From contig NC_133301.1 of NCBI RefSeq assembly GCF_005239225.2, positions 6,163,157-6,227,156 on the forward strand: a stretch of 64,000 nucleotides of DNA, written 5' to 3'. Below, one piece after another: positions 1 to 37,908 of this stretch. Within the stretch, counting starts at the first letter, position 1. Every line of letters begins with the position of its first letter. A program made the translations under genes and the position numbers. The stretch comes from Populus alba (Eukaryota; Streptophyta; Magnoliopsida; Malpighiales; Salicaceae). The notes below the pieces were generated by a model. It was not told the DNA's origin. It ran no database searches and worked only from the letters and a program-made list of their open reading frames with translations.

Positions 1-660
1 TATTGGCCCAAAGCTTGTTACATGGGTTAAGGAGAAAAGCTTAAGGGAATCAAACATTGCACTATCTACGTATCAGTATCTGCAACCCGAGTTGTTAAGC
101 TCGTAGGGGTGTCTCAACACCTAATGCCCTAAGACCAACTGGTCTGAGAGTCATTAGCCTAAAACTCGTTACATGGGTTAAAGATACATTGTGTTTTAAG
201 TTGTATGTGTATATAAATAAAATAAAAAAATAAAAATAAAAGAAGAAGAAAGAAAAAAAAGAAAAAAAAGTAATAATAATAATAATCCAACCCAAGGAAG
301 TTCACCCTAAACATTTGAACATAATGTTGTTTTCTTCCAACAAAAGCCCCATCATCTATGTTTTCATATATTGAGCACATAAAAAGAAGGTTTATTAATA
401 TCTTGTTTAAGAAGTATGAAGCAGGAATATAAATTTAATTAGAGTTTGTTTATCTGGATAGATTAATGGAAGTTGAATGATGAATGCCTTGCTTTGTGGA
501 ACTTGCAAATTGTTTCTCTATTTTAACGCTTTTGATTACTAGGGACTAGTAATAAGCTGGTTGGGGGGTGTGATTAGTACTTAAAAGTGCATGTTTATCA
601 AGGTTTTATATCATCATTTTGCACTTGAAGTATCAATAACTCCTTAACTAAAGCATGTTT
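1..660 (+). mobile_element. 3' end of an Athila-like LTR retrotransposon (Athila-A), truncated
   Basis: This stretch matches 23280-23930 of the complete element Athila-C almost base for base. It holds the untranslated region downstream of the LOG gene, then a polypurine tract at 556-570 (gctggttggggggtg), then the first ~90 bp of a 3' LTR starting tgattagtac at 571. The rest of the element lies off the left edge. At about 660 the LTR stops abruptly and joins an oppositely oriented LTR of the same family. No coding sequence is present; the A-rich runs at 217-270 are low-complexity. Confidence 0.85.
84..179 (+). other. Candidate structured RNA module, downstream copy (Athila-A)
   Basis: 96-nt copy of the module described at 23363-23459. 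All stems seen there can form, except that one G of the CCC/GGG helix is A here (gagag instead of gggag). The last 28 nt of the upstream copy are at positions 1-28. Confidence 0.55.
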
Positions 661-1817: not shown

Positions 1818-1913
1818 AACCCATGTAACAAGTTTTCGGCTAATGACTCCCAGACCAGTTGGTCTTAGGGCATTAGGTGTTGAGACACCCTTACGAGCTT
1901 AGTAACTCGGGTT
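1818..1913 (-). other. Candidate structured RNA module, downstream copy (Athila-B)
   Basis: 96-nt version of the module at 23363-23459, read on the minus strand. The inner stem with loop AACT and the CTAATG/CATTAG stem are intact. One base of the P2 helix becomes a G-U wobble (acttg instead of actca). Confidence 0.55.
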
Positions 1914-1968: not shown

Positions 1969-2064
1969 AACCTATGTAACAAGCTTTGGGCCAATAGCTC
2001 CCAAGTCAGTTGACTTTAGGGTATTAGGTGTTAAAACACCCCTTCGGGCTTAATTGCTTAGGTT
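1969..2064 (-). other. Candidate structured RNA module, upstream copy (Athila-B)
   Basis: 96-nt version of the module at 23211-23307. The closing helix reads AACCT/AGGTT here instead of AACCT/GGGTT, which turns a wobble into a Watson-Crick pair. Confidence 0.55.
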
Positions 2065-16359: not shown

Positions 16360-16873
16360 GAATCTAAACCTTTTGAGCCGGTACTCGGGTATGTCGTTGG
16401 CATTGCCGGACCGGAGGTCATCGTCGTATAGTAGCAATTTCACGCTGCTCCATGGAAAACAACCTACGAAAACTCATCAAAACATTTGAGCGCGATCTAG
16501 CGGTCGAATGTAAAGTTATGGACCTTTTGAGCCGGTACTCGGGTCTGTCGGTGGCATCGCCCCACAATAGGTCATCGTCGTGGACTAGCAATTCCACTCT
16601 ACTCCATGGAAAAAAGCCTATGAAAACTCATCAAAACATTTCAGCGTGATCTAATGGTCGGATCTAAAGTTAGGGACCTTTTGAGCCGATACTCGGGTCT
16701 TTTCGGTGGTATCTCCCGACCGGACGTCATCGTCGCGGACTAGCGATTGCACACTACTCAATGGAAAACAGCCACCAAAAACTCATCACAACATTTGAGC
16801 GCGATCCAACAGTCGGATCTAAAGTAATGGACGTTTTGAGCCAGTACTCGGGTCTGTCGGTTGCATCGCCCCA
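16360..16873. repeat. 154-bp satellite, left part of array
   Basis: About 3.3 monomers of the same satellite as 25462-34372, separated from it only by the Athila-C insertion. The last five bases, CCCCA (16869-16873), are the target-site duplication. Confidence 0.93.
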
Positions 16874-18477
16874 TGATTAGTACTTAAAAGTGCATGTTTA
16901 TCAAGGTTTTATATCATCATTTTGCACTTGAAGTATCAATAACTCCTTAACTAAAGCATGTTTTATAATAACAAGTTTGATATTATAAGATACCTTAATT
17001 TATGGTAAATGCTCATTTTAAATGCAGGACTATCACATAAATAAAAGGATTGATTGATGAGTTTAAGCATTGAAAGTTAAAGGACAAAGAGATGGCCAAA
17101 CTTAGAAAAGAGATGTCGGTGCAGTCCAAACCGGAACAGTGCTCGGTAATTGGCTCATATCTGGAGCTCTAGATCTCGGATTTAGGTCCATTTTATATGG
17201 ATGGAAAGGTAAAACATAGGCCTACAACTTTCATTTGGACACCAAGATCTAAGAAGGCCGTTTTCAAGTCCAAAATATAGGAACAACGAAGAAGTCCGAA
17301 GCTGTCCTGCAGCCCAGACACTATTTAGTGTTCAGCCCATATCTTGAGTTCTAGAAGTCCAAATGACCTCATCTTTTTTTCGTTGGAAAGCTGAGACAAT
17401 TTCCTAGAACATGCCTGAGGATTCTGGGCAAATTATGATGTTAGCAATGACGTCTTGTTCAGACAAGAAGATAAGGATTGTTATCAAGTCAAGATATGGC
17501 CACCCACTCATCAATTAGTCAACAAATCAATAGTTTCAAATTTTGGCCTATAAAAGGAGGCACTTACCATGTATTGAGGCATCTTGGTTTTCAGATCAAG
17601 ATCATGCTCTTGCTTTCTCTCTTTGTATTGCTTATGTCTTGCTTTCATTAATATCAAGTTTATGCATTTCATTTCCTTTCCTTAGTTCTCATTTATGTTC
17701 TTATCTTGTTCATTTATATTTCTTTCTTTCATTATGTTCAGCTAAGTTAATTATGTCAAGGTGAAAAGGGTACACTAATGGTGTAAGAATAAGTATAATA
17801 TAAACTTAACATGGACCTTAACGTTGGATACTAACATGTTTTATATTTGTTATCTTGTTCACTTTTAATACTTTGCTTGTTAAATGGTTAATCTAGATTT
17901 ATGTTGTATAACACTTGGTACAACAAATACTTGGCACTTTCATAGCCCATACTGTATGGTATAACCGACACCTGAGCTATGAAAGGAACTTGATTTGTTG
18001 TTAACATAAGTTATAATCATGAATGCCTGCCAACATTTACAAGTATTAGCTTTATTCGAATAAGATAACTAATGTAATCATGTTAACAATTTATAATCTG
18101 ATTGGAACCTCCTTTATGTGTGGTTTCAATTGAGTAATAAGAGTTTATATTATACTTGTTTGAAGTACCATTAGTGGATCCTCTAACCTTGACATTTATT
18201 TTTATCGTTGTTTAATCCTTACATTAATCTTCCAACTCAATGTTCTCATTAATTTCTTCCTTCTCTTCTTTATTGTTATTATTATTATTATTATTATTAC
18301 TATTACTACTACTACTTATCGTTAATATTATTATTGTTGTCGTTGTTGTTGTTATTGTGTTTGTATTTATAATTTATACAATTAACCTCTCTGTGGTTCG
18401 ACCCCGGTCTTGCCGGGTTATTTATTACTTCGACACTCCTGCACTTGGGAGAAGACATCAAGCTTTTGGTCGTGTCA
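16874..18477 (+). repeat. 5' LTR of Athila-C
   Basis: 1604 bp, TG...CA ends (tgattagtac...tcgtgtca). Its 3' part holds a trinucleotide-rich tract (18270-18355) and a GC-rich hairpin CCCGG-TCTTG-CCGGG near 18403-18417. Confidence 0.95.
17549..17556 (+). promoter_or_regulatory. LTR TATA box
   Basis: TATAAAAG in the context ggccTATAAAAGgagg, conserved in the 3' LTR at 24520-24527 and, in reverse, in Athila-B and Athila-D LTRs. It is the likely Pol II promoter for the genomic RNA; transcription would start ~30 bp downstream. Confidence 0.7.
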
Positions 18478-18483
18478 AGTTTT

Positions 18484-18500
18484 TGGCGCCGTTGCCGGGG
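18484..18500 (+). other. Primer binding site, tRNA-Asp (Athila-C)
   Basis: TGGCGCCGTTGCCGGGG, complementary to the 3' end of plant tRNA-Asp (CCCCGGCAACGGCGCCA), six bases after the 5' LTR. This primer is usual for the Athila lineage. Confidence 0.93.
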
Positions 18501-18704
18501 AGGTAAATTCTTGTATAAATTATAATATTTATTTTATTTTCTCTTTTCACTTTTAATTTTATTTAACTTTTGTTTCTTTTGTTTTCTTTTTTATTCTCTT
18601 TTCTTTTCTTCCTTTTATTCTCTTTTTTTTACACGTGCATGAGAGTTTGGTCACGTACATTAAGTGGTCGACTTTGTAGGGTATCTTCATCATTTTCAGA
18701 AAAT

Positions 18705-21548
18705 ATGGCCGAAGAAGATAATCAATCGCTTCATAATGAGAATAATGAGAATAACCGTATGAGAACACTTAGAGATCACATGAATCCCACAAGAACAAGT
18801 GCACCCTCATGCATAGTTTTCCCTCCTGATGCATCTCATTTTAATTTTAAGTCAGGCATTATTCAAACTTTTTACCATCTTTTTCATGGCTTAGACTTAG
18901 AAAATCCATACTTGCATTTAAGGGAATTTGAGGAGGTCTGTAATACCTATAATGACTCAAATTGTAGCATGAACACCATTCGATTAAAGCTTTTTCCTTT
19001 TTCATTAAAAGATAAAGCTAAAACATGGCTACAAAATTTGAGACCAGGATCCATTCGTGCTTGAGATGATATGCAACAACAATTTTTAAAGAAGTTTTTT
19101 CCGTCTCATAGAACAAACTCTTTCAAAAGACAAATCATCACTTTCACTCAAAAGTCAGGAGAAACATTTTACCAATGTTGGGATAGGTATCGAGATTTGC
19201 TTAATACTTGCCCACATCATGGTTTTGAAACATGGAGATTGGTTTCACATTTTTATGAAGGTTTAACACCTAGAGATAGGCAAATGGTTGAATTGATGTG
19301 CAATGGAACCTTTGAAGATAAAGACCCTAATGAAGCAATGGAGTACCTAGACTTGCTAACCGAAAATGCTCAAAATTGGGACACCACAGGTACTTATGAG
19401 GCACCAAGTAAAACTCAACCTCATACATCTAGTGGAGGTATGCACAACCTTAGGGAAGATCATGACCTTCAAGCCAAGTTTGCATCTTTAGCTAGAAAAG
19501 TCGAAGCACTTGAATTAAAAAAGAGTGGTCAATTAAAATCTGTTCAGGACATTGTGTGTCAAATTTGTGAAACCAAGGAACACTCAACAAATGATTGTCC
19601 AACTTTGCCTTCTTTTAAGGAATGCCTCCATGAACAAGCCCATGCTTTAAACAATTTCCAAAGACCCAACCATAACCCATACTCACAAACGTATAACCCT
19701 GGTTGGAGAAATCACCTAAATTTCAGTTGGAAGAGTGATAGCAACAATGCACAAACTTCACAGCCACCATTTCAAGCACACCATAATTTTCAAAATTCTC
19801 ATGGATATGCACCTCCTTATGCTCCACCTCCTAGAAGAAATTTTGAGGAAACATTGCATGCATTCATTGAAAAGCAGGAGACAATCAACACTCAACTTGC
19901 TCAAAGCATGACCGATTTTAAAGATGCTCTTGCAAAATTAACATCTGCTCTCAGTTTCCAAGAGAAAGGTAAGTTTCCATCTCAACCACAACAAAATCCA
20001 AAGGGGCAATACAATGCAAATGCAAGTAGTTCTGGAAGCCAACATATGGATCAAGTCAAATCAGTCATCACTCTTCGTAGTGGTAAGGTTATTGAAAAAC
20101 CCATTCTTGAACCTTGTGAGAAAGATGATGAGTCTATCTCTGAGGGTAAGGAAGGGGTTGAACCTGAACATTGCAAAGAAAAGGCTGATTCCCCGCCAAC
20201 ACTTCCATTTCCTCATGCCATGACCAAACAAAGGAAAGTCAATCACAACTCTGAAATCTTTGAAACTTTCAAACATGTAAGGATCAATATACCTTTGTTA
20301 GATGCTATTAAACAGGTTCCTTCCTATGCTAAATTTTTGAAAGATCTGTGCACCGTGAAGAGAAAACTGAATGTGAAAAAGAAAGCCTTTTTAGCCGAAC
20401 AAGTAAGTGCCATTCTTCAGAACAATAATGCTTTGAAATATAAAGACCCTGGTTGTCCTACAATTTCTTGCTTTATTGGAGAACATAAAATTGAAAGAGC
20501 CTTACTTGATCTTGGAGCTAGTGTGAATTTACTTCCATATTCAGTCTTTCAAAGTCTCAATCTAGGTGAGTTAAAACCAACTTCTGTAACTCTTTTACTC
20601 GCCGATAGATCTGTAAAAGTTCCTAGAGGAATAATCGAAGATGTGTTAGTACAAGTCGATAAATTCATTTATCCTGTGGATTTTATTGTCTTGGACACGC
20701 AACCTGTTGAAGCATGTAATTCATTTCCTATTATTTTAGGACGTCCGTTTCTTGCAACTTCTAATGCATTGATTAATTGTAGGAATGGACTCATGAAGTT
20801 ATCTTTTGGAAACATGACATTGGAGATGAATATTTTCAACATTTGCAAGCAACCTGGAGATGATAATGATTTACAAGAAGTAGATCTTATTGAAGAATTA
20901 GTTCATGATCAACTTGAATCTACTTTGAGTAAAATTGAGTTGGATGAATCTGAAGATTTGCAAATGATTTATTCTCAGGAAGAAATCATATATGAAAAAG
21001 GCACCAAAAATATTGATGCTGATCTTGTGTCAAAAGTGACAACAGATTTGACATCTGACATCCCACCAATCGATGATTACTCTCCTGACAAATCTTTACT
21101 TTCTCTTAGTTCAATGCCTTGGTTTGCTAAAAATATCAATTTTCTTGCAACAGGAGATTTGCCAGCTCACTTGAGTATCAAAGACAAAGGAAAGTTTTTG
21201 AATGAAGTGAAGAACTTTTATTTGGATGACCCTTACTTATTCAAAAATTATCCTGATCAAATATTTCAAAGATACATTCCCGACAATGAGGTAAGTAGTG
21301 TCATTAAACTTTGTCATTCTGAGGCATGTGGGAGTCATTTCTCGTCGAAAAGGACGATTGTAAAAATCTTACAATCTGGATTCTATTGGCCCACCATGTT
21401 CAAAGACACACATGTGTTCTGGAAAACTTGTGAAAATTGTCAAAAGTCAGGATTTATTTCAAGACATAAGGAATCTTTAGATAATCTTTTATTGACTTTT
21501 GCAACATATCTTGGTGGCAATGTGCATTGTGCATTTCATGACTTATGA
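18705..21548 (+). pseudogene. Athila-C gag-protease fused in frame to RNase H tail and integrase N-terminus
   Basis: Starts at ATG 18705 (MAEEDNQSLHN). One TGA at 19062-19064 replaces the Trp codon seen in Athila-D; after it 825 codons are open to 21548. Numbering from 19071: gag capsid region, zinc knuckle C-x2-C-x4-H-x4-C (residues 163-176, CQICETKEHSTNDC), a Pro/Gln-rich linker, and an aspartic protease with LLDLGAS (Asp ~480). Around residue 640 the frame jumps to the end of RNase H (KGTKNIDADL), then to the integrase zinc finger (HSEACGSHF... CENCQK) and then to ORF-X sequence. RT, most of RNase H and the DDE core are gone, yet the reading frame is kept across both deletions. With the single TGA suppressed or absent, this would give a Gag-protease polyprotein. 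Confidence 0.85.
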
Positions 21549-21659
21549 CTCCATTTTCCTAAAGAACATGCTTGACTTAGTCTTGGGAATCTGACTAAAA
21601 ACGACCCTGTTTGCCAGTTTTTAAGAAAACTGGATGGGAAGCCTATCCCCGACCCATAG
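21463..21659 (+). pseudogene. ORF-X remnant (C-terminal third)
   Basis: Matches the C-terminal part of 3565-4113 (KESLDNLLLTF ... DPVCQFLRKLDGKPIPDP, TAG at 21657). The first part, including the cysteine cluster, is deleted, and a frameshift lies near 21545. Confidence 0.75.
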
Positions 21660-21910
21660 AGGGCGTTTAAGCCGTTCTTGGACGTAAAACCAAGGGAAGA
21701 TGTGAGCCACAATCACAACTACCTGTACATACACATGCTTTTTCAAAATAAATAATTAATAAAGAGAGAGAGAGAGAGAGTGTGAGACTATAACTGGCCT
21801 ACATATAGGTGGTATGATTGCATTTTCACTTTTTCATCTATAAAGTCTTCTCTTCCTTCCCTTCATTTCTACTCATCCCATACATTCATCAAATATAGAA
21901 GTGTGTAGAA
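21660..21910 (+). promoter_or_regulatory. Putative internal promoter and leader of LOG
   Basis: TATAAA at 21839-21844 lies 67 bp before the LOG start codon and is followed by a pyrimidine-rich stretch (cttctcttccttccc) with no ATG before 21911. A (GA)n run is at ~21763-21780. The TATAAA is kept in Athila-B; Athila-D has TATTAAA. Arrangement and spacing fit a plant Pol II core promoter. This is inference from sequence only. Confidence 0.5.
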
Positions 21911-22564
21911 ATGGCAGGTTCCTCAAGTCATCACATAAAAAATATTTGTGTTTTCGGTGGATCCAGTCCTGGGAAAGAAAAAGAGTTTTTAGAATCAACA
22001 AATCATCTTGGTCGGGTACTAGCTGAGAGAAAGATTCATTTAGTGTATGGGGGAGGTAGCCTTGGGTTAATGGGAGGTGTGTCAATGGCTGCATTTTTGG
22101 GAGGCAGTCAAGTTTTGGGGGTTGTCCCCAAAGCTTTAGCAAATGGGGACATCATTGGAAAAACAATTGGAGAAGAACTACAGGTCCCAACAATGTCTAA
22201 CCGACTGAATAACATGTTTAACCATGCTGATGTTTTCATTGCCTTACCAGGTGGTCTGGGCACATTGGAAGAGATCTTTCATATTTCATCTTGGGCCCAA
22301 CTGCACATTCACCATAAACCTATAGGTTTGTTAAATGTTAATGGTTTTTATGATAAGTTGCTGTCTTTCCTTGATCAAGCTGTGGAACAAGAATTTCTAA
22401 CATCTTCGGCACGACAAATCATAATCTTTGCTGCTACTGCTGAACAATTGATTGACCAACTACAATCTTTCATCCCTGTCATTGATCCCTGCATGAGTCG
22501 CCTAGATTGGTCAACTAAGGAAAGCCGTAAAAAGCTTAGATTAGATTTGAGCCTTCATCTGTGA
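21911..22564 (+). CDS. LOG-like: LOG-type cytokinin riboside 5'-monophosphate phosphoribohydrolase, intact, carried by Athila-C
   Basis: 217-codon uninterrupted ORF, close to the usual 200-245 aa of plant LOG proteins. Motifs in order: KNICVFGGSSPGK (10-22), nucleotide/phosphate-binding YGGGSLGLMGG (46-56), conserved Arg98 (TMSNRLNNMF), PGGLGTLEE (113-121) with Glu121, WAQLHIHHKPIGLLNVNGFY (118-140 region) and a basic C-terminus. The Arg and Glu match the catalytic pair of the family. Members cleave N6-substituted cytokinin riboside monophosphates to the active free base and ribose 5-phosphate in the cytosol. Plant LOG genes normally have several introns; this copy has none, so it was probably captured from RNA. 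The start is the first ATG after the TATA box and is conserved in Athila-B and Athila-D. It lies where Athila elements have an env-like ORF. An unusual point is GGSS in place of the common CGSS near the N-terminus. Activity is not proven. Confidence 0.93.
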   Translation: MAGSSSHHIKNICVFGGSSPGKEKEFLESTNHLGRVLAERKIHLVYGGGSLGLMGGVSMAAFLGGSQVLGVVPKALANGDIIGKTIGEELQVPTMSNRLNNMFNHADVFIALPGGLGTLEEIFHISSWAQLHIHHKPIGLLNVNGFYDKLLSFLDQAVEQEFLTSSARQIIIFAATAEQLIDQLQSFIPVIDPCMSRLDWSTKESRKKLRLDLSLHL

Positions 22565-22697
22565 AACCTTATGTCTTTTGGTTTTATTAATAGCATATTA
22601 TTTTGTTACTTCTTATGTTTGTTTAAGTGTGTTTCAGGTTTGTCATTGTTCGTTGTTTCAGGTGATGTCTTCTATACTCTATCTTTCTACCTTCGAA

Positions 22698-22739
22698 CAT
22701 TGAGGACAATGTCTCGTTTTGGTTGGGGGGAGAGGGTAG
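22698..22739 (+). other. Hairpin plus internal purine tract (second polypurine-like tract)
   Basis: Hairpin CATTG-AGGA-CAATG (22698-22711) is followed by ggttggggggagaggg (22721-22736). The tract resembles the LTR-adjacent polypurine tract at 23828-23842 and is conserved in Athila-B (~2497-2535) and Athila-D (~37083-37120). It may be a second plus-strand primer or a relic of an older 3' end. Confidence 0.5.
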
Positions 22740-22745
22740 TACTTC

Positions 22746-23102
22746 AAAAAAAAAAAAAAAAAAAAACTAACTTGCTAACTGTTTTTGCTATTATTAAAAC
22801 CATTTGACAAAATTGTTATTAGGATGGCAGAGTATGGAATCAATTTTATTGACTCTAGAGACGCATCTTAGTAAGTTTCATTACCAAGGTCTATCATAAT
22901 ACTTCTTGAAATATTCAGGTTTACAAACTCTCACATTGTTATCACTTGATTCTGATCATATACTCATTTAACAAGTATTATTAAACCTTCATTTTTCACA
23001 CACACACTTTAACATATGATTGTGGTTGCACATTGGATTATTACAGTAATTATGTTCTTTTGTTGAAGGTAACAACTAAGGGTAAAGGATATTATATAAT
23101 TT

Positions 23103-23153
<51 letters not shown>
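22746..23153 (+). repeat. Poly-A tracts in the Athila-C 3' region
   Basis: Runs of 21 A (22746-22766) and 49 A (23105-23153) flank ~340 bp of AT-rich non-coding sequence. Athila-B and Athila-D have shorter A runs at the same places (read as T runs on the + strand). Confidence 0.9.
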
Positions 23154-23155
<2 letters not shown>

Positions 23156-23210
23156 AGATAGTATTGATGATAATAAAAACGTGGATAAAGTTTGGTTTCG
23201 TAGCCTCCAT

Positions 23211-23307
23211 AACCTAAGCAATTAAGCCCGAAGGGGTGTTTTTAACACCTAATACCCTAAAGTCAACTGACTTGGGAGCTATTGGCCCAAAGCTTGTTAC
23301 ATGGGTT
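23211..23307 (+). other. Candidate structured RNA module, upstream copy (Athila-C)
   Basis: 97 nt. Helices, numbered from the first base: 1-5 with 93-97 (AACCT/GGGTT), 6-9 with 82-85 (AAGC/GCTT), hairpin 26-30 with 34-38, 39-44 with 70-75 (CTAATA/TATTGG), 45-47 with 64-66 (CCC/GGG), and 50-54 with 59-63 (AAGTC/GACTT, loop AACT). It aligns without gaps to 23363-23459; six base pairs differ by a change on both sides. It lies between LOG and the polypurine tract, so it is in the genomic RNA and possibly in the 3' UTR of a LOG mRNA. Confidence 0.65.
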
Positions 23308-23362
23308 AAGGAGAAAAGCTTAAGGGAATCAAACATTGCACTATCTACGTATGAGTATTTAC

Positions 23363-23459
23363 AACCCGAGTTGTTAAGCTCGTAGGGGTGTCTCAAACAC
23401 CTAATGCCCTAAGACCAACTGGTCTGGGAGTCATTAGCCTAAAACTCATTACATGGGTT
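23363..23459 (+). other. Candidate structured RNA module, downstream copy (Athila-C)
   Basis: 97 nt, same fold as 23211-23307 but with AACCC/GGGTT, GAGT/ACTC, CTAATG/CATTAG, CCC/GGG and AGACC/GGTCT (loop AACT). The pair changes at 6:85, 9:82, 44:70, 51:62, 52:61 and 53:60 are compensatory relative to the upstream copy. Confidence 0.65.
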
Positions 23460-23827
23460 AAAGATACATTGTGTTTTAAGTTGTATGTGTATATATATAT
23501 AAAAAAAAAAAAGAAAAAAAAAAGAAGAAAAAAAAAAGAAAAAAAAAGTAGTAGTAATCCCAACCTAAGGAAGTTCACCTTAAACATTTGAACATAATAT
23601 TGTTTTCTTCCAACAAAAGCCCCATCATCTATGTTTTCATATATTGAGCACATAAAAAGAAGGTTTATTAATATCTTGTTTAAGAAATATGAAGCAGGAA
23701 TATAAATTTAATGAGAGTTTGTTTATCTGGATAGATTAATGGAAGTTGAATGATGAATGCCTTGCTTTGTGGAACTTGCAAATTGTTTTTCTATTTTAAC
23801 GCTTTGATTACTAGGGACTAGTAATAA

Positions 23828-23842
23828 GCTGGTTGGGGGGTG
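23828..23842 (+). other. Polypurine tract of Athila-C
   Basis: gctggttggggggtg immediately before the 3' LTR; expected primer for plus-strand DNA synthesis. The same sequence occurs at 556-570 and, in reverse, at 1438-1452 and 36011-36025. Confidence 0.85.
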
Positions 23843-25461
23843 TGATTAGTACTTAAAAGTGCATGTTTATCAAGGTTTTATATCATCATTTTGCACTTGA
23901 AGTATCAATAACTCCTTAACTAAAGCATGTTTTATAATAACAAGTTTGATATTATAAGATACCTTAATTTATGGTAAATGCTCATTTTAAATGCAGGACT
24001 ATCACATAAATAAAAGGATTGATTGATGAGTTTAAGCATTGAAAGTTAAAGGACAAAGAGATGGCCAAACTTAGAAAAGAGATGTCGGTGCAGTCCAAAC
24101 CGGAACAAGTGCTCGGTAAATTGGCTCATATCTGGAGCTCTAGATCTCGGATTTAGGTCCATTTTATATGGATGGAAAGGTAAAACATAGGCCTACAACT
24201 TTCATTTGGACACCAAGATCTAAGAAGGCCGTTTTCAAGTCCAAAATATAGGAACAACGAAGAAGTCCGAAGCTGTCCTGCAGCCCAGACACTATTTAGT
24301 GTTCAGCCCATATCTTGAGTTCTAGAAGTCCAAATGACCTCATCTTTTTTTTGTTGGAAAGCTGAGACAATTTCCTAGAACATTCCTGAGGATTCTGGGC
24401 AAATTATGATGTTAGCAATGACGTCTTGTTCAGACAAGAAGATAAGGATTGTTATCAAGTCAAGATATGGCCACCCACTCATCAATTAGTCAACAAATCA
24501 ATAGTTCCAAATTTTGGCCTATAAAAGGAGGCACTTACCATGTATTGAGGCATCTTGGTTTTCAGATCAAGATCATGCTCTTGCTTTCTCTCTTTGTATT
24601 GCTTATGTCTTGCTTTCATTAATATCAAGTTTATGCATTTCATTTCCTTTCCTTAGTTCTCATTTATGTTCTTATCTTGTTCATTTATGTTTCTTTCTTT
24701 CATTATGTTCAGCTAAGTTAATTATGTCAAGGTGAAAAGGGTACACTAATGGTGTAAGAATAAGTATAATATAAACTTAACATGGACCTTAACGTTGGAT
24801 ACTAACATGTTTTATATTTGTTATCTTGTTCACTTTTAATACTTTGCTTGTTAAATGGTTAATCTAGATTTATGTTGTATAACACTTGGTACAACAAATA
24901 CTTGGCACTTTCATAGCCCATACTGTATGGTATAACCGACACCTGAGCTATGAAAGGAACTTGATTTGTTGTTAACATAAGTTATAATCATGAATGCCTG
25001 CCAACATTTACAAGTATTAGCTTTATTCGAATAAGATAACTAATGTAATCATGTTAACAATTTATAATCTGATTGGAACCTCCTTTATGTGTGGTTTTCA
25101 ATTGAGTAATAAGAGTTTATATTATACTTGTTTGAAGTACCATTAGTGGATCCTCTAACCTGACATTTATTTTTATCGTTGTTTAATCCTTACATTAATC
25201 TTCCAACTCAAAGTTCTCATTAATTTCTTCCTTCTCTTCTTTATTGTTATTATTATTATTATTATTATTACTATTACTACTACTACTATTGTTATTATTA
25301 TCGTTAATATTATATTATTGTTGTCGTTGTTGTTGTTATTGTGTTTGTATTTATAATTTATACAATTAACCTCTCTGTGGTTCGACCCCGGTCTTGCCGG
25401 GTTATTTATTACTTCGACACTCCTGCACTTGGGAGAAGACATCAAGCTTTTGGTCGTGTCA
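23843..25461 (+). repeat. 3' LTR of Athila-C
   Basis: 1619 bp, TG...CA ends. It is nearly identical to 16874-18477; most length difference is in the trinucleotide tract near 25250-25330. TATA box at 24520-24527. Confidence 0.95.
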
Positions 25462-28400
25462 CCCCACTAGAGGTCATTGTCATGGACTAGCATTTCCACG
25501 CTACTCCATGGAAAAAAGCCTACAAAAACTCATCAAAACATTTGAGTGCGATCCAACGGTCGGTTCTAAAGTTACGGACCTTATGAGCCGGTACTCGGGT
25601 TTGCTGTGGCATCTCCCGACCAGATGTCGTCACCGTGCAGTAGCGATTCCACTCTACTCCATGGAAAATAGCCTAAAGTTATGGACCTTTTGAACCAGTA
25701 CTCGGTTCTTTCGGTGGCATTGTGCGACCAGACATCATCGTCAAGGAGTAGCGATTCCACGCTACTCCATGGAAAACAGTCAACAGAAACTCAATAGATT
25801 TGAGCGCGATCCAACGGTCGGTTCTAAAGTTACGGACGTTTTGAGATGGTACTCGACTTTGTCGGTGGCATCTCCCGACCGCAAGTCGTCATCGTGCAGT
25901 AGTGATTCCACGCTACTCCGTGGGAAACAACCTACAAAAAATCCTCTAAAGATTTGAGCGTGATCTGACGGTCGGATCTAAAGTTATGGACCTTTTGAGC
26001 CGGTACTCGAGTCAGTGGTGGCATCGCCCCACAGGAGGTCGTCGTCGTAGAGTACCGATTCCACGCTACTTCATGGAAAACAGCCATCGAAAACTCCTCA
26101 AAACATTTGAGCATGATCCCACAGTCGGATCTAAAGTTATGAAGCTTTTAAGCCGGTACTCGGGTCTGTTAGTTGCATTGCCCTATCGAAGGTCGTCATC
26201 GTGGAGTAGCGATTTCATGCTACACCATGGAAAATAGCCTACAAAAACTCCTCAAAATATTTGAGCGCGATCTAATGGTCGGATATAAATTTAAGGACCT
26301 TTTGAGCCGGTACTCGGGTATGTAGGTGGCATCGCCCCACAGGAGATTGTCGTCATGGAGTAGCGTGAGCGATTCCACGCTACTCCATGGAAAACAACCA
26401 TCGAAAACTCCTCAAAATAGTTGAGCGCGATCCAACGGTCGGGTCTAAAGTCATGGACTTTTTGTGCTGGTACTCGGGTCATCTCAGTGGCATCTCCTGA
26501 CCGTACATCGACGTCGTGGAGTAGCGAGTCCACGCTACTCCATGGAAAACAGCCACCGAAAACTCCTCACAACATTTGAGCGCGATCCAACGGTCGAATC
26601 TAAAGTTATGGACCTTTTGAGCCGGTACTCGCGCCTGTCGATGGCATCGCCCGACCGGAGGTCATCATCGTGGAGTAGCGATTCCATGCTACTCCATTGA
26701 AAACAGCCTACAGAAACTCCTCAAAAGATTTCAGCGCGATTCAACGGTTGGATCTAAAGTAATGGACCTTTTGAGCCGGTACTCGGGTCTATCGATGGCA
26801 TCGCCTGACCAGAGGTCGTTTTCGTGGAGTAGCGTTTCCACGCTACTCCCTGGAAAACAACCACCAGAAACTCCTCAAAACATTTGAGCGCGATCCAGCT
26901 ATCGGATCTAAAGTGATGGACCTTCTGAGCCGGTACTCGGGTCTGTTGGTGGCATAGCCCTACCGGACGTCGTCGTCGTGGAGTAGTGTTTCCACGCTAC
27001 ACCATGGATTTGAGCGCGATCCATCGGTTGGATCTAATGTTATGGACCTTTTGAGACGGTACTCGGGTTTGCCGTTGGCATCGCCCCACAGGAGGTCGTC
27101 GTCGTGGAGTAGCGATTCCATGCTACTCCATGGAAAACAGCCATCGCAAACTCCTCAAAACATTTGAGTGCGATCCAACAGCTGGATATAAAGTTATGGT
27201 CCTTTTGAGAAGGTACTCGGGTCCGTTGGTGGCATCGCCCGACCGGACGTCGTCGTCGTGGAGTAGCGATTCCACGCTACTCCATGGAAAACAGCCACTA
27301 AAAACTCCTCACTACATTTTAGCGCGATCCAACGATTGGATCTAAAGTTATGGACTTTTTGAGCCGGTACTGGAGTCTGTTGGTGGCATCGCCAACTAGA
27401 CGTCGTCATCGCGGAGTACCGATTCCATGCTACTCCATGGAAAACAGCCACCAAAAACTCCTCACAACAATTGAGCGCGATCCAATGGTCGGATCTAAAG
27501 TTATTGACCTTTTGAGCCGGTACTCGGGTCTGTCCGTGGCATCGCTAGACTTGAGGTCATCGTCGTAGAGTAGCAATTGCACGCTATTCCATGGAAAACA
27601 ACATATAGAAACTTGTCAAAAGATTTGAGCGCGATTCAACGGTCGGATCTAAAGTTATGGACCTTTTGAGCTGGTAGTCAGGTCGTGTCGGTGGCAGCGC
27701 TCAAAAATACATCGTTGTCCAGGAGTAGGGATTCTACGCTACTCCATGGAAAATAGCCTACGGAAACTCCTCAAATGAGTTGAGCGCGATGCAACGGTCG
27801 GATATAAAGTTATGGACCATTTGAGCCGGTACTCGGGTCGTATGGTGGTAGTGCTCGACCAGACGTCGTCGTCGAGGAGTAGCGATTCTATGCTACTCCA
27901 TTGAAAATAGCCTACGGAAACTCCTCAAAAGAGTTAAACGCAATCCAACGGACAAATATAAAGTTATAGACCTTTTGAGCCGGAACTTGGGTCGTGTCGA
28001 TGGCATCGCCCGACCAGACGTCGTCGTTGTGGAGTACCGATTCCACATTACACCATGGAAAAAAGCCTATGGAAACTCCTCAAAATATTTGAGTGCGATC
28101 CAACGGTCGGATCTAAAGTTATGCACCTTTGAGCCGGACCTCGGGTCTGGCGTTGGTATTGCCCGACCGGACGTCGTTATTGTGGAGTAGCGATTCCACG
28201 CTACTCCATGAAAAACAGCCTATGGAAATTCATCAAAACATTTGAGTGCGATCTAACAGTCGGATGTAAAGTTATGGACCTTTTAAGCCGGTACTCGGGT
28301 CATGTCGGTGTCCACGCGCGACCGGACGTCGTTGTCATGGAGTAGCGATTCCACGCTACTCTATGGAAAACAGCCTACGGAAACTCATCCAAACATTTGA

Positions 28401-31400
28401 GTGTGATCTAACGGTCAGATGTAAAGTTATGGACCTTTTGAGCCGGTACTCGGATCGTGTCAGTGACAGCGCGCGACTGGACATCGTTGTCGTGGATTAG
28501 TGATTCCACGATACTCCATGGAAAACATCCTATGGAAACTCCTTAAAAGATTTGAGGGCGATCCAACGGTCGAATCTAAAGTTATGGATCTTTTGAGCCG
28601 GTACTCGGGTCTGTCAGTGGCATCGCCCCACAGGAAGTCATCGTCGTGGAGTAGCGATTCCACGCTACTCCATGGAAAATAGCCTATGGAAACTCATCAA
28701 AACATTTTGAGAGCGATCCAATGGTCGGATCTAAAAAATAGTTATGGACCTTCGGAATTTGATGCCTATACTCGGGTCGCGTCGAAGTGGCAGCGACCGA
28801 TTGGACGTCGTCGTCATCGTGTAGCGATTCCACGCTACTCCCTGGAAATTAGCCACCGGAAAATCCTCAAAAACATTTGACAGCGATCCAACTGTCGGAT
28901 CTAAAGTTATGGGCCTTTTGAGTTGGTACTAGGGTCTATCAGTTGCATCGCCAAACCGGAGGTTGTCGTCGTGGAGTAACGATTCCACGCTACACCATGG
29001 AAAACAGCCTACAAAAACTCCTCAAAACATTTGAGTACGATCTAACGGTCGGATATAAAATTATGGACCTTGTGAGCCGGCACTCGAGTCTGTTGGTGGC
29101 ATCGCCCCACATGAGGTTGTTGTCATGGACTAGCGATTCCACGCTACTCCATGGAACACAACCTACAGAATCTCCACAAAAGATTTGAGCGCGGTCCAAC
29201 AGTTGGATCTATAGTTATGGAACTTTTGAGCCGGTACTCAGGTCTGTCGATGGCATCGCCCGATCGGAGGTCGTCGTCGTGAGTACCAATTCCACGCTAC
29301 TCCATGGAAAAATGCCTACGGAAACTCCTCAAAAGATTTAAGTGCGATACAACAGTTGTATCTAAAGTTATGGACATTTTGAGACGGTACTAGGGTCTGT
29401 CAATGGCATCGCCCGACCAGAGGTCGTCGTTGTGGAGTAGCGATTCCACGCTACTCCATGGAAAAAAGCCTACGAAAACTCATCAAAACATTTGAGCGCG
29501 ATCTAACGATCGCATCTAAAGTTCTGGACCTTTTGAGCTGGTACTCGGGGTCGTGTCGGTGGCAACACGTGACCGGACGTCGTTGTCGTGGAGTAGCGAT
29601 TCCACGCTACTCTATGGAAAACAGCCTACAGAAACTCATCAAAACATTTGAGTGTGATCTAACGGTCAGATGTAAAGTTATGGACCTCTTAAGTCGGTAC
29701 TCGGGTCGTGTCGGTGACAACGCGCGACTGGACATCGTTGTCGTGGATTAGTGATTCCACGATACTCCATGGAAAACATCCTATGGAAACTCCTTAAAAG
29801 ATTTGAGGGCGATCCAACGGTCGGATCTAAAGTTATAGAACTTTTGAGTCGTACTCGGGTGTGTCCTTGGCATTGCCCAACAAGAGGTCGTCGTCGTGGA
29901 GTAGCGATTCCATGCCATTCCATGGAAAACAGCCTACAAAAACTCCTCAAAAGATTTGACCGCGATCCAACGGTTGGATCTAAAGTTATGGTCCTTTTGA
30001 GCACGTACTCGGGTCTGTCCGTGGCATTGCCAGACTTGAGGTCGTCGTCGTAGAGTAGGAATTCCACGCTATTCCATGGAAAACAACATACAAAAACTCC
30101 TCAAAAGATTTGAGTGCGATCCAATGGTCGGATCTAAAGTTATGGACCTTTTGAGCAAGTTCTCGGGTCATGTCGGTGGCAGCGCTCAACCAGACATCGT
30201 TGTCGAGGAGTAGAGATTCTACACTACTCCATGGAAAATAGCCTACGGAAACTACTCAAAAGAGTTGAGCGCGATCCAACTGTCGAGTATAAGTTATGGA
30301 CCTTTTAAGCCGGAACTCGGGTTGTGTCGGTGGCAGATCTCGACCAGACGTCGTCGTCGAGGAGTAGCAATTATATGCTACTCCAAGGAAAATAGCCTAC
30401 GGAAACACTTCAAAAGAGTTGAGCGCGATCCAACGGTTGGATATAAAGTTATAGACTTTTTTATCCGGTACTCGGGTTTGTTGGTGGCATCGCCCGACCA
30501 GACGTCATCGTCGTGGAGTAGCGTGTAATTCAAAAACTACTCACAACATTTGAGTGCGATCCAACGGTCGGATCTAAAGTTATGGACTTTTTGAGCCGGT
30601 ACTCGGGTTTTTCGTTGGCGTCGCCCGACCGGACGTCATCATCGTGGAGAAGCAATTCCACGCTACTCTATGGAAAACAGCCACCGAAAACTCCTCACAA
30701 CATTTGAGCGCGATCCAACGGTCGGATCAAAAGATATGGACCTTTTGAGCCGGTACTCGGGTCTGTCCGTGGCATCGCCCGAATGGAGGTCGTCGTCGTG
30801 GAGTAGCAATTCCACGCTATTCCATGGAAAACATCCTACAGAAACTCCTCAAAAGATTTGAGCGCGATCCAACTGTCGAATCTAAATTTATAAACCTTTT
30901 GAGCTAGTACTCAGGTCGTGTTGGTGGCAGCGACCGACCGGACGTTGTCGTCGTGGTGTAGCGATTCCACGCTACTCCATGGAAAACAACCACTAGAAAC
31001 TCCTCAAAACATTTGAGCGCGATCCAACAATCAGATCTAAAGTTATGGACCTTTTGAGCTGGTACTCGGGTCTGTCCGTGGCATCGCCCGAATGGAGGTC
31101 ATCGTCATGGAGTAGCAATTCCACGTTACTCCATGGAAAACAACCTACAGAAACTCCTTAAAAGATTTAAGTGCGATCCAAGTTATTGACCTTTTGAGTC
31201 GGTACTCGAGTCTGTCGGTGGCATCTCTCGACCGGAGGTCATCGTCGTGGAGTAGCGATTCCATGCTACTCCATGGAAAACAACCTACAGAAACGCCTCA
31301 GAAGATTTAAGCGCGATAAAACGATCGGATCTAAAGTAATGGACCTTTTAAGCCGGTACTCGGGTCTGTCGGTGGCATCGCCCTACTGGACATCGTTGTC

Positions 31401-34372
31401 GAGGAGTAGCATTTTCACGCTACACCATTGAAAACAACCTACAAGAACTCCTTAAAAGATTTGAGCACGATCTAACGGTTGGATCTAAAGTTATGGACCT
31501 TTTGAGACGGTACTCGGGTCTGTCAGTGGCATCGCCCCACAGGAGGTCGTTGTCGTGGAGGAGCGATTCCACGCTAGTCCATGGAAAATGGCCTACGAAA
31601 ACTCATGAAAGCATTTGAGCGCGATCCAACGGTTGGATATAAAGTTATGGAACTTTTGAGCCGGCACTCCGGTCATGTAAGATCCACATCGGCGGGTGAG
31701 GGGTGTGTTGATGGCCTTATAAGTGGTGTTGGTTGCCAACTTGTTATATGCGTTTTGGGGCGTCAGACTCAAAAATGGGCTCGCGTCACCAGGAACAAAA
31801 CCGTGAGGGTGGTAAGGGACCAAAGCGGATAATTTTATGGCAAGTTGGGCCGGGCCATTACAGGTCATGTCGGTGCCATTGCTTGACCGTAGGTTGTCGT
31901 CGTGGATTAGCGATTCCACGCTACTCCATGGATAACAGCCACCGGAAACTCCTCACAACATTTGAGTGCGATCGAACGGTCGGATTTAAAGTTATAGATC
32001 TTTGGAGCCGGTACTCGAGTCTGTTGGTGGCATCGCCCGACCGGAGGTTGTCGTCATGGAGTAGCGATTCCATGCTACTCCATGGAAAACAACCTACAGA
32101 AACTCCTCAAAAGATTAAAGCGCGATCCAACGGTCGGATCTAAAGTAATGGACCTTTTGAGTCGGTACTCGGGTCTGTCGGTGGCATCGCCCCACAGGAA
32201 GTCGTCGTCAAGGAGTAGTGATTCCACGCTAGTCTATGGAAAATGACCTATGAAAACTCATCAAAAAATTTGAGGGTGATCCAACGGTCAGATCTAAAGT
32301 TATGGACCTTTTGAGCCGGTACTCGGGTCAGTCGGTGGCATCGCCCCACAGGAGGTCATCTTCGTGAAGTAGCGATTCCACTCTACTCCATTGAAAGAAG
32401 CCTATGGAAACTCATCAAAACATTTGAGCGCGATCCAACGGTCAGATCTAAAGTTATGGAACTTTTGAGTCGGCACTCCGGTCATGTCGGTTGCATCGCC
32501 CGACCGTAAGTTGTCGTCGTGGAGTAGCGATTCCACGCTACTCCATGGAAAACAGCCACTAGAAACTCCTCACAACATTTAAGTGCGATCGAACGGTAGG
32601 ATCTAAAGTTATAGACCTTTTGAGCAGGTACTCGAGTCTGTCTGTGGCATTGCCAAACCGGATGTCGTCGTCGTGGAGTAGCGATTCCATGTTACTCCAA
32701 GGAAAATAGCCTACAGAAACTCCTCAAAAGATTTAAGCGCGATCCAACGGTCGGATCTAAGGTAATAGACCTTTTGAGCCGCTACTCGGGTTTGTCGGTG
32801 GCATTGCCCGACCGGAGGTCATCGTCTTGGAGTAGCGTTTCCACGTTACTCCTAGGAAAACAGCCACCGAAAACTCCTCAAAACATTTGGGAGCGATCCA
32901 ACTGTCGGATCTAAAGTTATGGACCTTTTGAGGCGGTACTCGGGTCTATTGGTGGCATCGCCCCACAGGAGGTCATCGTCGTGGAGTAGCGATTCCACGC
33001 TAGTCCTTGGAAAATGGCCTACGACAACTCATCAAAACATTTGAGTGCGATCCAACGATCAGATCTAAAGTTATAGACCTTTTGAGCCAGTACTCGGGTC
33101 TGTCGGTGGCATTGCCCCACAGGAGGTCGTCGTCGTGAAGTAGCGATTCCACGCTACTCCATGGAAAACAGCCATCCGAAACTCCTCACAACATTTGAGG
33201 GCGATCCAACGGTGGGATCTAAAGTTATGGATCTTTTGAGCTAGTACTCGAGTTTGTCGGTGGCATCGCCCGACCGTAGGTCATCGTCGTGGAGTAGCGA
33301 TTCCACGCTATTCAATGGAAAACAGCCTTCAGAAACTCCTCAAAAGATTTGAGCGCGATCCAACGGTCGGATCTAAAGTAATGGACCTTTTGAGCCGATA
33401 CTCTGGTCTGTCGGTGGCATCGCCCAACCGGAGGTCGTCGTCGTGTATTAGCGATTCCACACTCCATGGAAAGCATCCTACAAAAACTCATCAAAACATT
33501 TGAGCGTGATCTAACGGTCGAATCTCAAATAATGGACCTTATGAGCTGGTATTCGGGTCATGTTGGTCGCATCACGGGACCGGACATCGTCGTCATGGAG
33601 TAGCGTGGAAACTCTACTCCATGGAAAATAGCCTACGGAAACTCCTCAAAAGAGTTGAGCGCGATCCAACGGTCGGATCTGAAGTTATGGACCTTTTGAG
33701 GCGGTACTCTAGTCGTGTCCGTGGCATCGCGTGACCGGACGTCTTCGTCGTGGATTATCGATTCCACACTACTCCATGGAAAGTAGACTACAAAAACTCC
33801 TCAAACGATTTGAGCGCGATCTAACAGTCGGAGCTAAAGTTATGTACCTTTTAAGCCGGTACTCGGGTCGTGTGGGTGGCATCGCTCGACCGGACATCGT
33901 CGTCATGTATGGAAAATAGCCTACGGAAACTCCTCAAAATAGTTGAGCGCGATTCAACGATCGTATCTAAAGTTTTAGAACTTTTGAGGCGGTAATCCTG
34001 GTAGTGTCGGTGGCATCACCCGACTGGACGTCGTCGTCGTGGAGTAGCGATTCCACGTCGTCGTCGTGGAGTAGCGATTCCACGCTACTCCATGGAAAAC
34101 AGCCACCGGAAACTCAAAAGATTTTTGCACGATCTAAGGGCGGATCTAAAGTTATGGACCTTTTAAGCCGGTACTCGGGTGGGGTTTGTTGGTGGCATCA
34201 TCCGACCGGAGGTTGTATTCATGGTGTAGCGTTTCCAGGCTACTCCATGGAAAACAGCCTACGGAAACTCATCAAAACATTTGAGCATGATCTAACGGTC
34301 GGATCTCAAGTAATGGACCTTATGAGCCGGTACTCGGGTCCTGGCGGTGGCAGTGCTCGACCGGATGTCGTC
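25462..34372. repeat. 154-bp tandem satellite array
   Basis: About 58 head-to-tail monomers of ~154 bp (e.g. gagttggtac at 28920 to gagccggcac at 29074), moderately diverged, with single-base and short indel differences. Recurrent landmarks in each monomer are gagccggtactcggg, a GTC-rich segment, then the inverted repeat TGGAGTAGCG-ATTCCA-CGCTACTCCA and tttgagcgcgatcca. Two monomer subtypes differ at ccccacaggagg versus cccgaccggacg. A 31-bp local duplication is at 34034-34095. The array is interrupted by a solo LTR at 31676-31862 and ends at the LTR of Athila-D. The array is GC-richer than its neighbours. Confidence 0.95.
31676..31862 (+). mobile_element. TRIM-like solo LTR (187 bp) in the satellite
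   Basis: TGTAAGATCCACATCGG...GGGCCATTACA, with TG...CA ends (TGTAA/TTACA inverted termini), flanked by the direct repeat GGTCA (31671-31675, 31863-31867). It contains a TATA-like ccttataag. The GATCCACATCGG start and GGCCCGGCCCAAC end (reverse strand) recall small non-coding plant TRIM LTRs. Orientation and family are uncertain. Confidence 0.75.
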
Positions 34373-36010
34373 TGACATGACCAAAAGCTTGATGTCTTCT
34401 CCCAAGTGTAGGAGTGTCGAAGTAATAAATAACCCGGCAAGACCGGGGTCGAACCACAGAGAGGTTAATTGTATAAATTATAAATAACAACGCAACAATA
34501 ACAATAATAACGATAATAATAACAATAGTAGTACTAGTACTAGTAATAATAATAATAATACTCAGTACGTGGCGTTGTTATACCTGAGAATGATCTAAAA
34601 GATCGGGTCACAGGTTTCCAGCCTATATACTGAGTTTATGAACAAATAACAACAACAACAACAACAACAACAACACTAATAAAGAAGAGAAGGAAGAAAT
34701 TCATGAGAACTTGAGTTGAAAGATTAATGTAAGGATTAAACAACGATAAAAATAAATGTCAAGGTTAGAGGATCCACTAATGATACTTCAAACAAGTATA
34801 GTATAAACTCTTATTACTCAATTGGAAACCACACATAAAGGAGGTTCCAATCAGATTATAAATTGTTAACATGATTACATTAGTTATCTTATTCGAATAA
34901 AACTAATACTTGTAAATGTTGACAGGCATTCATGATTATAACTTATGTTAACAACAAATCAAGTTCATTTCATAGCTCAGGTGTCGGTTATACCATACAG
35001 TATGGGCTATGAAAGTACCAAGTATTTGTTGTACCAAGTGTTATACAACATAAATCTAGATTAACCATTTAACAAGCAAAGTATTAATCATGTTAAGTTT
35101 ATATTATACTTATTCTTACACCATTAGGGTACCCTTTTCACCTTGACATAATTAACTTAGCTAATATAATGAAAGAAAGAAACATAAATGAACAAGATAA
35201 GAACATAAATGAGAAAGAAGTTAACTAAGTAAAGGAAAGGAAATGAAGTGCATAAACTTGATATTAATGAAAGCAAAACATAAGCAATACAAAGAGAGAA
35301 AGCAAGAGCATGATCTTGATCTGGAAACCAAGATGCCTCAATACATGGTAAGTGCCTCCTTTTGTAGGCCAAAATTTGGAACTATTGATTTGTTAATTAA
35401 TTGATGAGTGGGTGGCCACATCTTGACTTGGTGACAATCCTTATCTTCTTGTCTGAACAAGACGTCATTGCTAACATCATAATTTGCCCAGAATCCTCAG
35501 GAATGTTCTAGGAAATTGTCTCAGCTTTCCAACAAAAAAAAGATATGGGCTGAACACTAAATATTGTCTGGGCTGCAGGACAGCTTCGGACTTCTTCGTT
35601 GTTCCTTCAGTTTGGACTTTAAAACGGCCTTTTTAAATCTTGGGCTCCACATGAAAGTTGTAGGCCTTTGTCTCACCTTTCCATCAATATACAGTGGACC
35701 TAAATCCAAGATCTAGAGCTCCAGATATGATCCAATTACCGAGCAATGTTCCGGTTTGGACTGCACCGACATCTTTTTTCTAAGTTTGGCCATCTCTTTG
35801 TCCTTTCACTTTCAATACTTAAACTCATCAATCAATCCTTTTATTTATGTGATAGGCCTGCATTTAAGATGAGCATTTACCATAAATTAAGGTATCTTAT
35901 AGTATCAAACTTGTTATTATAAAACATGCTTTAGTTAAGGAGTTATTGATACTTCAAGTGCAAAATGATGATATAAAACCTTGATAAACATGCACTTTAA
36001 GTACTAATCA
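34373..36010 (-). repeat. 3' LTR of Athila-D
   Basis: 1638 bp, tgacatgacc...gtactaatca in plus orientation. It carries a 76-bp block (34560-34635) that is absent from the Athila-C LTRs. Its outer edge directly adjoins the satellite. Confidence 0.93.
34560..34635. repeat. 76-bp inverted-repeat-bounded block inside Athila-D LTRs
   Basis: Begins ACTCAGTA and ends TACTGAGT (8-bp inverted termini), inside a trinucleotide-rich tract. A second copy is in the 5' LTR at about 44328-44407, and Athila-C has no such block. It could be a tiny MITE-like insertion inherited through LTR replication. Confidence 0.5.
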
Positions 36011-36381: not shown

Positions 36382-36477
36382 AACCCATGTAACGAGTTTT
36401 AGGCTAATGACTCCCAGACCAGTTGGTCTTAGGGCATTAGGTGCTGAGACACCCCTACGAGCTTAACAACTCGGGTT
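36382..36477 (-). other. Candidate structured RNA module, downstream copy (Athila-D)
   Basis: 96-nt copy of the module at 23363-23459; the AACCC/GGGTT, CTAATG/CATTAG and AGACC/GGTCT helices are kept. Confidence 0.55.
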
Positions 36478-36532: not shown

Positions 36533-36628
36533 AACCCATGTAACAAGCTTTGGGCCAATAGCTCCCAAGTCAGTTGACTTTAGGGTATTAGGTGTTAAAA
36601 CACCCCTTCGGGCTTAATTGCTTAGGTT
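36533..36628 (-). other. Candidate structured RNA module, upstream copy (Athila-D)
   Basis: 96-nt copy of the module at 23211-23307; the AACCT/GGGTT, AAGC/GCTT and AAGTC/GACTT helices are kept. Confidence 0.55.
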
Positions 36629-37258: not shown

Positions 37259-37908
37259 TCACAAATGAAGGCTCAAATCTAATCTAAGCTTTTTACGGCT
37301 TTCCTTAGCTGACCAATCTAGGCGACTCATGCAAGGATCAATGACAGGGATGAAATATTGTAGTTGGTCAATCAATTGTTCAGCAGTAGCAGCAGAGATT
37401 ATGATTTGTCGTGCTGAAAATGTTAGAAATTCCTGTTCCACAGCTTGATCAAGGAAAGACAGTAACTTATCATAAAAACCATTAACATTTGACAAACCTA
37501 TAGGTTTATGGTGAATGTGCAGTTGGGCCCAAGATGAAATATGAAAGATCTCTTCCAATGTGCCCAGACCACCTGGTAAGGCAATGAAGGCATCAGCATG
37601 GCTAAACATGGCGTTCAGTCGATCAGACATTGTTGGGACCTGTAATTCCTCTCCAATTGTTTTTCCAATGATGTCCCCATTTGTCAAAGATTTGGGGACA
37701 ACCCCCAAAACTTGACTGCCTCCTAAAATGCAGCCATTGAAACACCTCCCATTAACCAAGGCTGCCTCCCCATACACTAAATGAATCTTTCTCTCAGCTA
37801 GTACCTGACCAAGATGATTTGCTGATTCTAAAAATCTTTTTTCTTTCCCAGGGCTGGATCACCGAAAACACAAATATTTCTTATGTGATGACTTGAGGAA
37901 CTTGCCAT
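37259..37908 (-). pseudogene. LOG-like: LOG-type phosphoribohydrolase, frameshifted copy
   Basis: Aligns with the intact 217-codon gene at 21911-22564. The C-terminal ~155 codons are open and keep Arg98 and PGGLGTLEE, but short deletions around 37690-37780 and 37850-37860 shift the frame in the N-terminal GGGSLGLMG region, so no full protein can be made. The start ATG is at 37908. The TATA box region reads TATTAAA. Confidence 0.88.

Follow-up and report, generated by a model that had tools for sequence, protein, structure and literature searches.

A duplicated, covarying fold near the 3' LTR of a poplar LTR retrotransposon is probably a structured, cis-acting RNA repeat

In our study, two tandem 97-nt modules (M1 and M2) of an LTR retrotransposon were found to have a fold that covaries within the window, the whole stretch of 64,000 nucleotides of Populus alba DNA that was analysed, and these modules are probably a structured, cis-acting RNA repeat of the element. 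Every module copy analysed comes from this one 64-kb window. In a young element, a compact RNA that is duplicated and covaries close to the 3' LTR would offer a definite sequence for the export, stability or packaging signals of plant elements. Moreover, the cargo genes next to the modules, LOG and a carlavirus-type NABP, are unusual.

The host element, C, carries M1 at 23211..23307 and M2 at 23363..23459, both on the forward strand, between its LOG open reading frame (ORF) and its 3' LTR. The two modules align without gaps over 97 nt with the same pairs, and they differ at 24 of 97 positions, where a preliminary description of this DNA had given about 25. The relatives of C within the window are A (at the window edge), B and D. 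Full module copies are located on the reverse strand in B (M1 at 1969..2064, M2 at 1818..1913) and D (M1 at 36533..36628, M2 at 36382..36477) and on the forward strand in A (M2 at 84..179). The earlier count of seven full copies in four elements was upheld, and a truncated eighth was added to it: at 1..28 (forward strand) only the 3' end of M1 of A is left inside the window. A search of the window by nhmmer returned the seven copies, the truncated eighth (E 8.5e-5) and two more matches at E 5.5 and 7.4. With the covariance model run on the window with filters off, the seven copies scored 109-116 bits and the other nine rows 9.6-14.6 bits (best E 0.48), the truncated eighth copy having 11.0 bits and E 4.3; no further convincing module copy was seen in the window by this model, the next score being 14.6 bits. 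Exact module patterns had no match in viral and genome (bacterial, archaeal) contig collections, and blastn against plasmids and phages gave no relatives, all of these being collections which say little about plants.

Element C spans 16874..25461 on the forward strand, as judged from its LTR pair, flanks, the surrounding satellite and Pfam matches, and its target duplication is CCCCA. The 5' LTR (16874..18477) and 3' LTR (23843..25461), both forward and placed by LTR alignment, show 98.6% identity with 5 mismatches and 6 gap openings in 1620 columns. A primer-binding site, TGGCGCCGTTGCCGGGGA, directly follows the 5' LTR and is presumably of the tRNA-Asp type. A polypurine tract, GGTTGGGGGG, adjoins the 3' LTR at 23831..23840 on the forward strand, and a second polypurine-tract-like copy with the same sequence lies at 22721..22730, also forward. 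Pfam matches to gag and integrase-zinc domains are present in the long ORF, together with an aspartyl-protease match slightly below the curated cut-off. From the domains of this ORF, element C is read as Ty3/gypsy; the features of that group found in it are the LTR pair, target duplication, polypurine tract and gag and integrase-zinc domains. The placing of the modules in the 3' region of the internal part of an LTR element, as first described, is upheld by the LTR pair and the Pfam matches. Elements B, C and D each have two polypurine-tract-like copies (on the reverse strand starting at 2505 and 1449 in B, and at 37097 and 36022 in D), with an AGTANTT stretch after each and the modules in between. 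An A tract (23105..23153, forward) has 49 A in C, 12 in B and 12 in D. The insertion target of C is a 154-bp tandem satellite array of about 9 kb (25448-34372 and 16368-16873).

In module numbering, the helices of the proposed fold are P1 (1-5:93-97), P2 (6-9:82-85), P2b (16-18:74-76), P3 (25-28:36-39), P4a (41-44:70-73), P4b (45-47:64-66) and P4c (50-54:59-63). Double changes had been named at 6:85, 9:82, 44:70, 51:62, 52:61 and 53:60, and switches between wobble and Watson-Crick pairing at 5:93 and 40:74; all of them are present, and a seventh double change was found at 18:74. Fifteen of the 24 changes are at paired positions of a 29-pair structure, where they make up seven double changes plus a single one, from U.G to C-G. 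When changes are placed at random, these 29 fixed pairs, a structure picked after viewing both modules, receive at least seven doubles at P = 9e-5, and the double changes keep P = 0.000175 without the three adjacent apical pairs. RNAalifold shuffles allow for such a choice of structure, because each shuffle is refolded. For M1 and M2 of C, RNAalifold gave -27.05 (z -5.0), a value as good in 0 of 2000 column shuffles, and in a repeat run 1 of 1000 shuffles folded as well. The structure returned by alifold contains 8 double changes (null mean 1.9, maximum 6), and its pairs 10:33 and 11:32 are double-changed and lie outside the consensus used. Transitions account for 21 of the 24 changes between the two modules, and since two transitions in the same Watson-Crick pair can never break it, the evidence is that both partners change together. 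The loop AACT and the CCC/GGG helix, described as invariant, are so in both modules of C, but among the seven copies one CCC/GGG pair is broken in M2 of A.

A further helix, P0, was identified two bases beyond each module, as CUCC/GGAG in M1 (23205..23208 with 23310..23313, forward) and GUAUNU/ANAUAC in M2 (23355..23360 with 23462..23467, forward). The offset and the pairing of P0 are common to M1 and M2 and the letters are not; such a common flanking helix is met in shuffled flanks at P = 0.028. One P0 pair of M2 varies among the orthologous copies: A and D have C-G, B has A-U and C has U.G, and A and D differ from B by a double transversion. Because P0 sits outside, the structural unit exceeds the 97-nt module of the preliminary description. 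With P0 included, alifold on the sense strand reached z -7.04 in C, -6.87 in D and -8.55 in B, with 0 of 1000 shuffles in each. In the seven-copy alignment with P0, for which 4 of the 6 M2 P0 pairs were counted, a standard pair is present in 223 of 224 cells, and both partners have changed in 11 of 32 pairs, where the cells are not independent events and the main covariation is a single contrast, M1 against M2. After a shift of the partners by 1-3 columns, standard pairs make up 23-46% of the cells, and no more than one pair has a double change. When this alignment was shuffled, 0 of 500 shuffles reached its number of paired cells, its number of doubly changed cells or its covariation score; the count of double-changed pairs was matched in 10 of 500 and the number of pair types in 499 of 500. 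The pipeline was also run on 60 satellite-repeat pairs (113-nt windows with 18-36 differences), which gave a mean z of -1.19, a minimum of -4.73 and at most 3 double changes, in comparison to z -6.9 and 10 double changes for the modules.

The consensus fold lies above the single-sequence minimum by 6.3 (M1) and 9.3 (M2) kcal/mol, and the pair probability of P2 is about 0.01, in context too. In comparison to shuffles, the isolated M1 has no unusual stability (z -0.56 to -1.19 in three copies), and the isolated M2 is moderately stable (z -2.11 to -2.72 in four copies). The consensus may be either stabilised by tertiary contacts or a protein, or wrong in parts. By pair probability in the isolated modules of C, the safer helices are P1, P3 and P4c in M1 and P3, P4a and P4c in M2. 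A pseudoknot between UUAAGC of M1 and the spacer, considered by eye, was rejected, as a counterpart after M2 was not seen.

The conservation of the modules was analysed by counting variable columns among B, C and D, excluding gap columns and A-rich tracts. There are 1 of 96 variable columns in M1, 7 of 96 in M2 and 79 of 906 in seven flanking non-coding stretches pooled. M1 was found to be conserved against the pooled flanks (Fisher P = 0.0023), and also against the flanks minus 22565-22867, in part of which the alignment of D is poor (P = 0.008), against LOG (45 of 650 variable, P = 0.012) and against the right arm of the enclosing inverted repeat taken with the LTR start (37 of 621, P = 0.026); the comparison with the right arm alone (11 of 206) gave P = 0.06. 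M2 shows no measurable constraint against the flanks (P = 0.40), and the joint value for M1 and M2 is P = 0.019.

Element C is the youngest of the three datable copies, since it has the fewest LTR mismatches (5 in 1620 columns, against 7 in 335 and 15 in 435 for overlapping LTR pieces of B and D, respectively). In comparison to D, it is without the D stretches 41644-40090, the site of an RT match, and 39599-38284, which comes after the integrase zinc domain. A loss of most of the integrase from C was considered and dropped, as ORF 4317-4988 had no Pfam match. The NABP ORF remains in C only as the portion from B 3757 onward, the zinc-finger part being gone, and the LTRs, polypurine tract, LOG and both modules are all retained. 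A recent move of C, probably helped in trans, with the modules kept, fits a cis signal as a single case. The retention may also be due to chance, because other non-coding DNA is kept in C as well.

These observations are best explained, with about an even chance in our judgement, by the modules being a conserved and duplicated structured RNA that acts in cis on the genomic RNA through a protein, for export, stability or packaging. Each module would form a three-way junction, in which the P3 and P4 hairpins stand on a stem of P0, P1, P2 and P2b. Lying in the 3' non-coding stretch of a putative Ty3/gypsy element, the modules would be present in its genomic RNA. The two modules then most likely serve, in cis and post-transcriptionally, as a pair of binding sites for a protein of the host or of the element, and the bound protein would promote export, stability or packaging of the genomic RNA. 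Known transport elements (CTE, RTE and MTE) recruit the NXF1 export pathway. We infer the sense RNA, the cis action and the step affected, all three. The points in favour of a transport or packaging role, as suggested in the preliminary description, are limited to the 3' position, the duplication and the retention in a deleted copy.

By size and copy number, the nearest analogue of the modules is the DR of Rous sarcoma virus, which is located in the 3' part of the genome. Both repeats measure about 100 nt and occur twice close to the 3' end, a resemblance in size and location that says nothing of homology; the virus is an animal retrovirus whose DR flank a captured oncogene, whereas the poplar modules stand side by side. 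In the available text of a review, the 115-nt DR repeats flank src and have effects on cytoplasmic accumulation, RNA stability and packaging, and these effects are called pleiotropic and contradictory (PMC3856414). The RTE of IAP and the MTE of MusD are likewise structured cis elements of LTR retrotransposons, for the export of full-length RNA, but they belong to mouse elements; the recent review that describes them, in the portion available, states that the export of plant LTR-element RNA has not been studied directly (PMC12786077). Sireviruses also have several polypurine-tract copies and an inverted repeat upstream of the 3' LTR, but they are Ty1/copia elements, for which the accessible part of the paper describes no tandem folded modules (PMC2829016). 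No description of the modules themselves was found in searches of the open-access literature, apart from preprints, that covered Populus elements, LOG capture, carlavirus-type proteins, transport elements, tandem repeats and RNA structure in plant retrotransposons. An ENE or dENE is defined by a U-rich internal loop between two stems, for a triple helix, and by eye such a U-rich loop is absent from the seven module copies. The ENE of Arabidopsis Evade resembles the modules in being a structured 3' UTR RNA of a plant LTR element, and it promotes RNA stability and mobility, according to the accessible text (PMC12501189).

The Rfam check proposed with the preliminary description was run on 23151-23520 up to E = 10 and gave no convincing family; the sole match is mir-965, on the other strand between the modules (E = 6.3, with 13.9 bits where the cut-off is 43). 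A tRNA search on the modules found nothing convincing. The idea of a new structured RNA agrees with the conserved fold and with the lack of a convincing Rfam match, and has to be amended in that the unit, with P0, is larger than the 97-nt module. It is unlikely, in our view, that the modules are instead a structured RNA captured elsewhere, or one transcribed antisense, which the element carries along without using it. The antisense alifold is as strong (z -6.44, -7.45 and -8.02 with P0 and -5.66 without it), in both modules of C the antisense would allow P2b a length of seven pairs, and the region is a patchwork of LOG ORF, A tracts, inverted repeat and two polypurine-like copies. On the other hand, neither Rfam nor the tRNA search gave a convincing match, M1 is conserved among the elements, and the 32 consensus pairs in the sense reading contain 4 G.U cells against 1 A.C cell, which leans slightly to sense for a consensus that was itself selected on the sense strand. 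When M1 is folded together with a long outer stem (23177..23352, forward), z is -3.49 for sense (0 of 200 shuffles) and -0.92 for antisense (37 of 200). For M1 with this stem, sense is clearly preferred in C (0 of 150) and weakly in D (20 of 150), and no preference is present in B (49 of 150); M2 does not prefer sense in A, B, C or D (38 to 138 of 150). The sense strand is preferred here only because the genomic RNA is that strand.

Both modules are enclosed by what is treated as a long decayed inverted repeat, with its left arm at 22868..23070 (forward) and its right arm at 23577..23782 (reverse). The arms have 65% identity over 215 columns, and their score is 37, where 300 shuffles reached 19 at most. 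In C they fold more stably as sense RNA, and this strand difference was reached in 0 of 60 shuffles. Pairs common to both strands include 5 G.U against 4 A.C cells (7 against 9 in the arm alignment), and in the same pairs one element pair is changed on both sides, with one element unpaired there. No sign of selection on RNA pairing was found in the arms by G.U against A.C cells and double changes, and a grand foldback as a functional RNA was rejected on this balance and these changes, which show no RNA-level selection. The location of the modules inside this repeat, and the equal folding of the two strands, would be in line with a fold at the DNA level, where template switching makes one hairpin arm a copy of the other and matched changes arise without RNA selection. 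The three adjacent double changes (51-53:60-62) could be a single event of this kind. We regard this origin as quite unlikely, as the changes at 6:85, 9:82, 18:74 and 44:70 are scattered (the P of 0.000175 given above), and as the inverted repeat itself has one (sense) or two (antisense) double-changed element pairs, a weak comparison since its copies differ much less.

Tandem repeats of 8 to 100 bp which adjoin the 3' LTR, between pol and the LTR, are described for Retand elements in the available text of a study that counts arrays of at least three copies and whose main text is without the term 'secondary structure' (PMC11963269). Arrays are frequent at that place in Tat/Retand elements according to the same text (PMC11963269), and the modules could in principle be an ordinary tandem repeat of this sort with no RNA function. 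Such an explanation is distinctly improbable for modules that occur in two copies only and whose covariation exceeds that of all 60 satellite-repeat pairs.

The LOG ORF of C (21911..22564, forward, 217 aa, Pfam PF03641) is of the LONELY GUY type, a cytokinin-activating enzyme type. Among B, C and D its reading frame is intact in C only; the ORF of B (2667-3320, reverse) has a premature stop and that of D (37259-37908, reverse) one stop plus frame breaks. The LOG protein of C has 95% identity with a Populus alba protein, and 7809 of 7998 scored candidates in the protein search are relatives. Among the 120 matches listed there are eight named Populus entries and one from Xanthoceras (63%), and the remaining ones listed are mostly JGI or ENA entries with 80-95% identity. 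Gypsy elements that carry LOG-type (YgdH) domains have already been published for Citrus and Populus trichocarpa (PMC9289625). The short intergenic stretch upstream of LOG (21548-21911) contains a GA microsatellite and, by eye, a TATA-like ATCTATAAAG, and is perhaps a LOG promoter.

Upstream of LOG, element B has an NABP ORF (3565-4023, reverse) with matches to Viral_NABP (E 1.3e-7) and Carla_C4 (E 2.5e-6). These are carlavirus-type nucleic-acid-binding proteins, so that a virus-type zinc finger, encoded in B at 3861-3823, is present within a plant Ty3/gypsy family. In the NABP protein search 590 of 630 scored candidates are relatives, and among the 120 matches listed there are five named Populus entries and one from Xanthoceras, many of the matches being of 182 aa. 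LOG, NABP and RT protein queries gave no relatives in the viral contig collection, which says little about plants. The NABP is a thinkable protein partner, because the export of the genomic RNA of Cer1, an LTR element of C. elegans, needs an element-encoded protein, as reported in the text available (PMC10309623). A system like Rev and its response element, with the NABP from fuller relatives attaching to the tandem modules so as to transport, protect or package the genomic RNA, and with deleted copies such as C, which keep the modules, being carried along in trans, is nevertheless a very improbable version of the protein-mediated reading.

A ribozyme or riboswitch had been left open in the preliminary description, and a self-cleaving ribozyme or riboswitch of a class new to Rfam, to which the compact junction and some conserved unpaired stretches might belong, is extremely improbable, as the families held by Rfam, those of self-cleaving ribozymes included, are unmatched in 23151-23520 up to E = 10 apart from the opposite-strand mir-965 match (E = 6.3), and as 9 of 39 unpaired and 15 of 58 paired positions are changed, about equal proportions and unlike a catalytic core.

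Two further features of the window concern the wider element family. At 660-662 the opposite-facing truncated LTRs of A and B meet, forming a rearrangement breakpoint. The whole window at the Rfam 15 gathering score gave 4 matches, every one to MIR2912, a microRNA reportedly treated in a Populus paper. They lie at 956-1111, 17200-17355, 24171-24326 and 35541-35673, all within LTRs of this element family, and because 4 of 4 matches in the window fall in LTRs, the MIR2912 family looks retrotransposon-derived.
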